Positions 47,544-50,072 of a stretch of DNA of 64,000 bases are shown one piece after another (within the stretch, counting starts at the first letter, position 1; the number at the start of each line of letters is the position of its first letter). The position numbers and the translations under genes are program-made. The notes under the pieces are model-generated. The model saw nothing but the letters and a program-made list of their open reading frames with translations, was not told where the DNA came from and searched no databases. The stretch is taken from contig NZ_JAAAXJ010000003.1 of assembly GCF_009910705.1 (NCBI RefSeq), positions 62,001 to 126,000 of the forward strand, written 5' to 3'. The stretch is from Microvirga arsenatis. GTDB taxonomy: Bacteria > Pseudomonadota > Alphaproteobacteria > Rhizobiales > Beijerinckiaceae.

Positions 47544-47618
47544 ATGCCCCCACGCACCACCTCCTCAAAGCCCGCCGCCCACCTGACCCCCGACGAGGCC
47601 CGCGCCGAGCACGGCTAG
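47544..47618 (+). pseudogene. ligA: Remnant of the original ligA N-terminus
   Basis: An ATG opens a 24-codon frame reading MPPRTTSSKPAAHLTPDEAR then AEHG and stop. LTPDEARAEH is the typical beginning of alphaproteobacterial LigA, just before domain Ia. The similarity stops abruptly at ~47612, where composition also changes. The rest of the original Ia domain is missing. It shows where the native gene started and where foreign DNA joins. Confidence 0.75.
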
Positions 47619-48172
47619 CGCTGTTACGGCGAATATTTGTAGGCGAGTAAGAGCCCTGCATTTAGATCTAAAACATCCGATTGCTCTGGATTCCCTAACA
47701 TGACTTCTGACAAATCTAAAGAAATCGAACCGAAATTGTTTGACGATGATCTCGTCCCAAACAAAAGTAAGCCTGCTGAAGTTAGGGATTTATCAAAGAT
47801 ATTTTGCAGAATCCTTAGAGGTATACCGGAAAAGGACATATTTCACGCTCTAGCGCGAGTTCCTGAGTCTGTAGTCGAAAATTTATATTTAACATTCGCG
47901 GGACCACTTATTGCCCAGGCCGGGCAGAAATTTGAACGAGATGATCTAAGAGAAATTGCTCGGAATATAGAATTTAAGGGTTTGTCCCTACCATATGACA
48001 GTCTGAGAGAGTTTCTGGATATATTGCAGAAGCAGTATGACCTTACACAGAGAACAGATTATTCCGATATTGAATTCGATGCTCTAAAAGCAATAGTCAT
48101 TTATCTTGGTGAGATTGCCCCGGAGCTGCCAGAATTCACTGAGATCGGATCAAAAGACTTAGGGAAATTTGC
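47619..48172. other. AT-rich foreign-looking segment replacing the ligA 5' part
   Basis: G+C counted over three 60-base lines is 35% (47761-47820), 45% (47881-47940) and 40% (48001-48060), against 63% at 48241-48300 in the ligA body. Codon use is likewise unlike all neighbours. The segment carries about 80 bases of leader and the first ~157 codons of the present ligA. No terminal repeats or transposase were seen, so recombination within a diverged ligase gene is the likelier origin. Confidence 0.75.
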
Positions 48173-50072
48173 GAAGATCCGGCATCGCGTGCCGATGCTT
48201 TCGCTCGCCAACGGCTTTACGGACGAAGAAGTCGAGGAGTTCGTCGAGCGCATCCGCCGCTTCCTCAATCTGAAAGACGATGCGCCGCTGGCCTTCACCG
48301 CCGAGCCCAAGATCGACGGCCTGTCCTTGAGCCTGCGCTACGAGAACGGAAGGCTCGTCTCCGCCGCCACCCGGGGCGACGGTGCGGTGGGCGAGGACGT
48401 GACCAACAACGCCCGCACGGTGGGCGACATCCCGCATCAACTGAAGGGCTCGAGCCTTCCGGAGGTCCTCGAGGTGCGCGGCGAGGTCTATCTCTCGCAC
48501 GAGGATTTCGCCGCCATCAATGCGCGCCAGGAAGCGGCCGGCAAGCCGCTCTTCGCCAATCCGCGCAACGCGGCGGCAGGCAGCCTGCGCCAGCTCGATG
48601 CGTCGATCACCGCCTCGCGTCCGTTGCGCTTCTTCGCCTATGCCTGGGGCGAGGTGAGCGCCATGCCGGCGGACACGCAATACGGCATGATGGAGTGCTT
48701 CAGGAGCTACGGCCTCAAGGTCAATCCGCTGACGCGCCGCTGCACGAGCATCGCGGAGCTGCTGGAGCATTATCACGCCATCGAGGCGGACCGCGCCAAT
48801 CTCGGCTACGACATCGACGGCGTCGTCTACAAGGTCGATTCCTTGAGCCTGCAGCAGCGCCTCGGCTTCGTCTCGCGCTCGCCGCGCTGGGCGCTGGCGC
48901 ACAAGTTCCCGGCGCAGAAGGCGATCACGGTGCTGGAAGGCATCGAGATCAATGTGGGCCGCACAGGGTCGCTCAACCCCATTGCGCGGCTCAAGCCTGT
49001 CACGGTGGGCGGCGTGGTGGTGTCGAACGCGACCCTGCACAACGAGGATTACATCAAGGGCATCGGCGGCAACGGCGAGAAGATCCGCAATGGTGTCGAC
49101 ATCCGCATCGGCGACACGGTCGTGATCAACCGCGCCGGCGACGTGATCCCGAAGGTGCTCGACGTGGTGCTGGACAAGCGTCCCCCGGACGCGAAGCCTT
49201 ACGAGTTTCCCACCACCTGCCCCGCCTGCGGCAGCCATGCGGTGCGCGAGGTCAATCCGCGCACGGGCAAGGAGGATGCGGTGCGCCGCTGCACCGGCGG
49301 CCTCATCTGCCCGGCGCAGGCCCGCGAGCGCCTAAAACACTTCGTGTCGCGCAACGCCTTCGACATCGAGGGGCTGGGCATGCAGCGCATCGACGAGTTC
49401 TACGAGGAGGGCTTGATCCAGCGCCCGCAGGACATCTTCACGCTGGAAGCGCGAAACGCGCGCAGCCTCAAGCGGCTGGAGAACCGGGAAGGGTGGGGCG
49501 AGACGAGCGCGAAGAACCTCTTTGCGGCCATCGAGGCACGCCGCTCGATCTCGCTCAACCGCTTCATCTTCGCGCTCGGCATCCCGCATGTGGGCGAGAC
49601 CTCGGCGCGGCTGCTCGCCCGCCATTTCGGCACCTTCGAGCACCTGCGCGAGGTTGCGAGAGCGGCCGCCGATCCGGCATCGGAAGCGCATGCGGAACTC
49701 ACCTCCATCGGCGGCATCGGGCCGGTGGTGGCCGAGGCCATCGTCGAGTTCTTCAGGGAGGCGCACAACGGGGAGATGCTCGATGCGCTCCTCGCCGAGG
49801 TCGCCATCGAGCCCATGGAGGCGCCGGCCGCCGCAAGCTCGCCCGTCGCCGGCAAGACCGTGGTGTTCACCGGTTCCCTGGAGCAGATGACCCGCGAGGA
49901 GGCCAAGGCCATGGCCGAGCGGCTCGGGGCCAAGGTGGCGGGCTCCGTGTCCAAGAAGACCGACATCGTGGTGGCGGGTCCCGGCGCGGGCTCGAAGCTC
50001 GCCAAGGCGGCCGAGCTGGGTGTTCAGGTCATGGACGAGGACGGCTGGTTCGCCCTCGTCGGGCGCGGGTGA
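47700..50072 (+). CDS. ligA: NAD+-dependent DNA ligase, mosaic with a replaced N-terminus
   Basis: Seals nicks using NAD+. It has 790 residues, against ~670-720 for the family. Residues 1-90 match nothing I know. Residues 105-160 are a divergent Ia domain keeping Tyr113, Asp123 and Asp127 (E. coli Tyr22, Asp32, Asp36), while His23 is Asp114 and Tyr35 is Phe126. From [14 protein letters not shown] (156) on it is a normal LigA. It has the adenylation Lys204 in KIDG, the OB fold, a four-Cys zinc site (CPACG to CPAQ), helix-hairpin-helix repeats and a C-terminal BRCT domain. The ATG at 47700 has a weak ribosome site. It stands at the usual ligA position, downstream of recN. Confidence 0.9.

Follow-up and report, generated by a model that had tools for sequence, protein, structure and literature searches.

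The stretch of DNA analysed here, 64,000 nucleotides in length and referred to as the window, carries a ligA open reading frame of 790 aa on its forward strand (47700-50072). The housekeeping gene recN, recognised by its motifs and by Pfam SMC_N, lies 5.8 kb upstream on the same strand (40229..41917). The sequence-only reading had invoked a conserved recN-ligA order; in the window the two genes do not adjoin, and other genes stand between them. One of these (42084-43883) encodes a protein with nine matches to RTX-type nonapeptide repeats (Pfam HemolysinCabind), and tandem DNA repeats of 27, 54 and 81 bp (43142-43387) fall within this gene. Eight neighbours in the window are ordinary by Pfam, comprising a BamD-like lipoprotein, recN, the RTX-repeat protein, an M28 peptidase, an epimerase-like protein, an AraC regulator, AzlC and an M24 peptidase.

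The ligA locus itself is a succession of native and foreign parts on the forward strand. A native ligA 5′ region (47488..47613), comprising upstream sequence, a start codon at 47544 and codons 1-23, is 82-90% identical to two native loci of the same genus (L002 and L005) and agrees with the translations of relatives. Similarity to these loci ends after 47613 and returns at 48174 with 89-90% identity. The intervening AT-rich block (47614..48173; 41% G+C), delimited by this loss and return of similarity and by composition, measures 560 bp and replaces the 188 bp of native ligA found at the same place in L005. It encodes the head of the protein, made up of an unnamed added N-terminal domain (approximately residues 1-95; 47700..47984), defined by alignment across nine LigA heads, and a divergent NAD-binding domain Ia (approximately residues 96-157; 47985..48170), defined by a nine-head profile compared with solved LigA structures and by a residue map. 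The native LigA body (48174..50072), placed by Pfam, same-genus matches and a body tree, supplies the adenylation, OB, zinc finger, HhH and BRCT domains.

The drop in G+C at the start of ligA that had been read from the letters is real, with values of 0.37-0.49 in 150-bp windows from 47625 to 48224 against approximately 0.66 in the surroundings. The block as a whole has a G+C of 0.412, no other 560-bp stretch in the window falling below 0.588 (mean 0.668, sd 0.030), and in a 300-bp scan of the window it is the sole stretch below 0.54, one other, at 3001, reading 0.54. The native remnant from 47544 encodes MPPRTTSSKPAAHLTPDEARAEH, which is the native LigA start as in relatives, followed by one further codon and a TAG stop (47616-47618). 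Positions 47544-47618 therefore form a dead-end reading frame of 24 codons in which the first 23 codons of native ligA are retained, severed from their body, while the foreign protein reads from its own ATG at 47700. Position 47544, from which the sequence-only reading had begun the locus, is thus a real native start codon, although one belonging to a remnant not recognised as such. The 24-codon frame precedes the working ligA start and may influence its translation.

The window's genome returned a single LigA match in the search for a further ligA that the sequence-only reading had proposed, and no displaced native head was found there either (head profile, E up to 0.1: one match). All 60 relatives compared, including 36 of the same genus, match the window LigA only from residue 97 or later in whole-protein searches, and no sister genome with the foreign head was found. 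The native remnant, the sharp composition block, the limits of the matches in relatives and the placements of body and head in trees (below) confirm that the sole ligA found in this genome is a mosaic in which a native ligase body carries a 5′ end of foreign origin, as the sequence-only reading had proposed.

LigA, a drug target, is essential and near-universal in bacteria. What distinguishes it from human ligases is domain Ia, the part by which NAD+ is read. The window protein scores 819 bits against the NCBIfam LigA model NF005932 (cut-off 369), in a match that begins only at residue 100, and 723 bits against TIGR00575 (cut-off 444). The adenylation, OB, zinc finger, HhH and BRCT domains are all present by Pfam, the KIDG motif is found in the translation, and the nearest same-genus matches to the body are 91-92% identical. 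The protein is thus like the LigA of these models in body, domain order and KIDG motif, and it is the only LigA found in its genome; it is unlike them in adding an N-terminal domain of approximately 95 residues and a foreign, divergent Ia, and in being altered at the residues aligned to H23 and Y35. The 790-aa chimera most likely works as the NAD+-dependent ligase of the cell.

Profile searches identified eight further cases, all recN-linked ligA genes from three families of the order, giving nine homologous AT-rich heads (the window, G327, G542, G980, G381, G107, G462, G545 and G439); G327 corresponds to the public record of Devosia subaequoris DSM 23447. Used alone as a query, the window head matched two of 397 genomes of the order, its own and G327, and one more case, G542, was found with the Devosia head as query among 136 genomes of the Devosia family. 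G980 came from a search of 298 genomes of the window's family that gave two matches, the other being the window's own genome, and G381 and G107 from 397 genomes in which at least four head cases were among the matches listed. G107 is the sole carrier in its family of 11 genomes. A six-head profile matched 127 of the 136 Devosia-family genomes, six of them with full heads, including the new cases G545, G462 and G439; the remaining rows start at profile position 42 or later, mostly beyond 60, like ordinary Ia. Single-head searches are insensitive, as the window-head query missed G381 and G107 in what is apparently the same 397-genome sample, and G381, G545, G462 and G439 were not among the matches of the Devosia head in the 136 genomes.

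Outside the order no such head was recognised: an early profile matched one of 385 genomes of the class besides the window, in Ia only, and among 164 genomes of the class 40 matched, none with a full head except the window. Upstream-reaching matches in G404, G301, G284, G267, G160 and G077 were found to be ordinary or to be without the added domain. Twelve further upstream-reaching loci were likewise ordinary or devoid of the added domain, among them that of G653, a genome of another order; its AT-rich LigA gene (L148) departs somewhat from the usual native head and carries an insertion ahead of the adenylation domain. The count of nine leaves out upstream-reaching rows with stops inside the match, for example those of G354, G340, G214, G680 and G595. 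Related replacements are thus present in at least nine genomes, and the swap is recurrent. A keyword search of open-licence papers returned, in the portions of text available, no report of ligA head replacement.

From its position 84 onward, the nine-head profile aligns with domain Ia in solved LigA structures (E 7e-11), which bears out the sequence-only observation of approximately 90 unfamiliar residues preceding a divergent Ia. Five domain Ia residues of E. coli LigA with a role in the enzyme (Y22, H23, D32, Y35 and D36) served as reference positions. The residues aligned to Y22, D32 and D36 (numbering of the 2owo alignment) are kept in all nine heads. At the Y35 position there is Tyr in five heads and Phe in four, the window head having Phe, and the H23 position is occupied by Tyr (five), Asp (two, including the window head), Asn (one) or Glu (one). 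The window head reaches no family in Pfam, PHROGs, NCBIfam or PADLOC, and the G107 head scores 21.9 bits against Nlig-Ia, below the cut-off of 27.

For the first 80-95 residues of the heads, no match passed a cut-off or had a strong E-value in Pfam, NCBIfam, PHROGs, PDB or PADLOC (the last with four heads). The added domains of the two head groups align with an hhalign probability of 55.7, versus at most 2.35 in 30 column shuffles. This alignment well above the shuffles, together with the shared Ia match, indicates that the heads are related, and at the level of sequence they form one family with the added domain in common. Divergence within the family is wide, with identity to the first row of the alignment at 19-39% for seven of the eight other heads and 55% for the eighth. 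For a single pair of heads, those of G327 and G542 with 63% identity, differences were sorted by codon position and number 49, 34 and 94, a pattern as expected for a protein under constraint. An AlphaFold2 model of the head from two sequences had a mean pLDDT of 51.8 and would make the added domain helical at this low confidence; Foldseek searches with it gave nothing below E 0.48, and we assign no fold to the head. The best PDB row for the added domain is the Int structure 2kiw (E 0.038), and a protelomerase row is also weak. A tyrosine recombinase core-binding domain is not supported as the origin of the added domain, the hhalign probability of 0.9 being no higher than those of 30 shuffles, which reached 1.88. 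DUF2674 is a weak lead, with a match to a single one of six members (E 2.8e-4) and a score of 19.4 bits, short of the cut-off of 27. PHROGs rows on the added part are likewise weak (best E 0.0046, phrog_34025), and the NAD-ligase rows of PHROGs cover the Ia part.

Bodies and heads have different relatives. In the body tree the window falls within its own genus (100/98), and support of 100 unites G107 with G267, G542 with G428, G327 with G041 and G462 with G295, G381 having no resolved position within its family. Five of the six cases that had a same-genus native in this tree (the window, G107, G542, G327 and G462) pair with it at 100; the contrast within a genus is seen in G107, which has a foreign head, against G267, which has a native one. 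The head tree has long branches, and the window, G107 and G439, as well as the joining of G107 with G439, were flagged as unsure, so that only one split is relied on, which sets the window, G327 and G542 against the other six (97/97). This split groups the window head with two heads from another family, and separates the window from G980 of the same family and G542 from G381 of the same genus. The disagreement between the two trees shows that the heads moved horizontally. The earlier suggestion that recombination had swapped the 5′ end is upheld by the same placements, the body going with its own genus and the head with the heads of another family.

The foreign heads are joined to native sequence in different ways at their two ends. 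Compared with same-genus natives, the left joint lies within the last recN codons in G381, just after recN in G327 (25 bp before the head) and G542 (2 bp before the head), and in frame behind the native start ATGGCCAAG in G107; in the window it follows native codon 23 and precedes the head by 86 bp. The joints of three more cases were placed by composition or by the recN stop: the AT-rich sequence of G980 begins just after recN, 91 bp before the head, and the head ATG overlaps or directly follows the recN stop in G545 and G439. Left joints show no evident homology and are found at points between the end of recN and roughly native codon 85, and the foreign part starts within approximately 90 bp of the start codon of the foreign head in every case. 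On the right, comparison with natives shows that native sequence resumes inside the stretch encoding VGxxPxxxFxKVRHxVPMLSL in the window, G327, G542, G381 and G107. Composition returns in the same stretch in G980 and G439, and the AT-rich G545 gives no composition signal. The right joint of G327 is approximately 30 bp earlier than that of the window, and that of G462 is more than 500 bp further into the adenylation domain than in the other cases. With both joints varying between cases, no constant crossover sequence was found at them.

G462, a Devosia-family genome on a single contig of 4.33 Mb, encodes a LigA of 884 aa (L118:9522-12161) with two successive Ia domains, the first native and the second foreign. 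Its foreign head follows a complete native head in frame within the same open reading frame, and the native head ends at VGAPPAEG, at approximately the codon position of the head-body joints elsewhere. GC3 is 0.37-0.47 over the first 540 nt after the head, 0.57-0.60 up to ~810 and 0.73-0.87 thereafter. The G462 body is 63-68% identical to three Devosiaceae bodies over columns 0-200 and 71-78% over columns 200-440, against 74-75% and 69-71%, respectively, for four ordinary body pairs. This AT-rich, low-identity sequence past the head indicates that the donor had at least this part of LigA. A diverged ligase or a fusion protein had both been proposed as the source of the new 5′ end; with an AT-rich stretch reaching into the adenylation domain in G462, the diverged ligase fits better than an unrelated fusion partner.

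We interpret these observations, with a probability of about 72%, as recurrent replacement of the 5′ part of the essential ligA gene from an AT-rich donor LigA, the product being kept as a working enzyme. The housekeeping ligA of the window would have lost native codons 24 to ~86, their place being taken by the 5′ end of an AT-rich LigA of foreign origin with an extra N-terminal domain and a divergent Ia, and the chimera would be read from the new ATG at 47700 as one 790-aa protein. The donor would be the LigA gene of an AT-rich genome or of a mobile element. The right joint probably arose by homologous recombination with the donor ligA in the conserved DNA with which the adenylation domain begins, and the left by illegitimate joining. 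One homologous and one non-homologous joint, as we propose here, are also features of homology-facilitated illegitimate recombination as described in the available part of the source (PMC3240628). That process alone, as far as this part sets it out (PMC3240628), would not predict what distinguishes the ligA cases, in all of which the foreign part begins close to the foreign start codon. Ordinary recombination leaves so tight a left edge unexplained. The swap may have been kept because it alters how LigA works, is bound or is attacked.

One form that such selection could take, compatible with the preferred reading, is escape: phages, toxins or natural products would attack Ia and the swap would protect the cell. 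In its favour are the fact that independent gains fell on a single essential gene and a single domain of it, the protein-level constraint in the pair compared and the wide differences between heads, yet nothing in the window indicates an antagonist, and we regard escape as a tentative and rather unlikely account of why the heads were retained. In the same doubtful range lies the further conjecture of a hidden pool of alternative LigA heads, carried on AT-rich mobile DNA and repeatedly grafted onto chromosomal ligA in this order, with the heads protecting from, or exposing to, a phage or mobile-element factor; were it true, the ligase would be a battleground with that factor. Partial homology is said to serve in the displacement of type VI secretion system (T6SS) effector genes in Vibrio cholerae. 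That displacement, in the available part of its description (PMC5361080), resembles the ligA cases as recurrent recombination at one locus, and differs in that the effectors belong to an arms race whereas ligA encodes an essential replication and repair enzyme.

No donor was found in phages, plasmids or IMG/VR by searches that would overlook divergent relatives. No match to four heads (those of the window, G542, G980 and G545) was found by tblastn in 50,697 phage and 72,556 plasmid records. A longer G462 query matched LigA genes of phages and plasmids, all at less than 60% identity, and most of the 50 matches listed start at query residues 76-93, corresponding to Ia, with a few between 22 and 68. 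Five scans of IMG/VR with a few short patterns, which divergent relatives would escape, found no head; of two short-pattern scans of GTDB, one found Devosia subaequoris only and the other nothing, so that other known cases were missed.

A mobile element could also have acted more directly, integrating in the 5′ part of ligA and bringing a substitute 5′ end that was kept when the element was later deleted. The SXT element in prfC reportedly supplies a substitute gene end in this way, as other elements are said to do for their targets, and the likeness at ligA would be a mobile source supplying the new 5′ end of a core gene; the difference is that no element, integrase or fixed crossover site was found here. 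The left joint that varies in the recipient while the foreign part starts near the head's start codon, as if its upstream side had eroded, is what such a relic might leave, and the native head of G462 stops at VGAPPAEG, near the usual head-body joint. However, no integrase or other mobile gene was found among the eight window neighbours by Pfam, and none was recognised by eye in the open reading frame lists of L033, L054, L059, L118 and part of L122, a look that covered five other cases, with G381, G545 and G439 outside it. No genome with an intact element was seen either: the two-match genomes inspected have either two full-length LigA genes, as is apparently so in G144 (L099, L102) and in G644 (L152, L153; both with ordinary heads), or a split contig (G052). 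The right joints, which lie approximately 30 bp apart in G327 and the window and are shifted by more than 500 bp in G462, also argue against a fixed crossover site. We consider a deleted element improbable.

Replacement from a donor LigA, the reading we prefer, means that the interface formed by the Ia part is replaceable in nature and maybe under recurrent pressure. The nine natural chimeras allow Ia variants to be compared and offer a handle for finding factors that attack LigA or recruit it. Even a gene that is essential and single-copy can be a mosaic inside one protein, which would mislead LigA-based trees.

The same base composition that marks the heads as foreign could in principle have arisen without transfer, by fast evolution of a native head in place under an AT bias. 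In a set of 119 distinct ligA loci, which came from searches and is no random sample, the nine cases have the nine lowest differences in G+C between head and body (-0.27 to -0.08), the ordinary head of L150 tying at -0.08. In 500-bp bins the head has the lowest G+C of the locus in L033, L054, L059, L090, L118 and L122, but not in L119 and L120, which come from AT-rich hosts. The head is AT-richer than the body in all nine cases, including the AT-rich G545 (0.35 against 0.42), so that an intrinsic composition bias of this domain may play a part. Evolution in place is nonetheless very hard to reconcile with the native remnant beside the foreign head in the window, the intact native head beside it in G462, the added domain common to the heads and the conflict between head and body trees. 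Misassembly or contamination, to which an abrupt composition change within one gene of a draft genome of 73 contigs might point, is very unlikely given an in-frame fusion without stops on a 574-kb contig, a contamination of 0.66% and eight further homologous cases, one of them in the single-contig G462 and one in a strain with a public record.

In G107 the end of ligA holds another AT-rich stretch, smaller than that of the head, with a G+C of 0.50 (L122:12100-12399).
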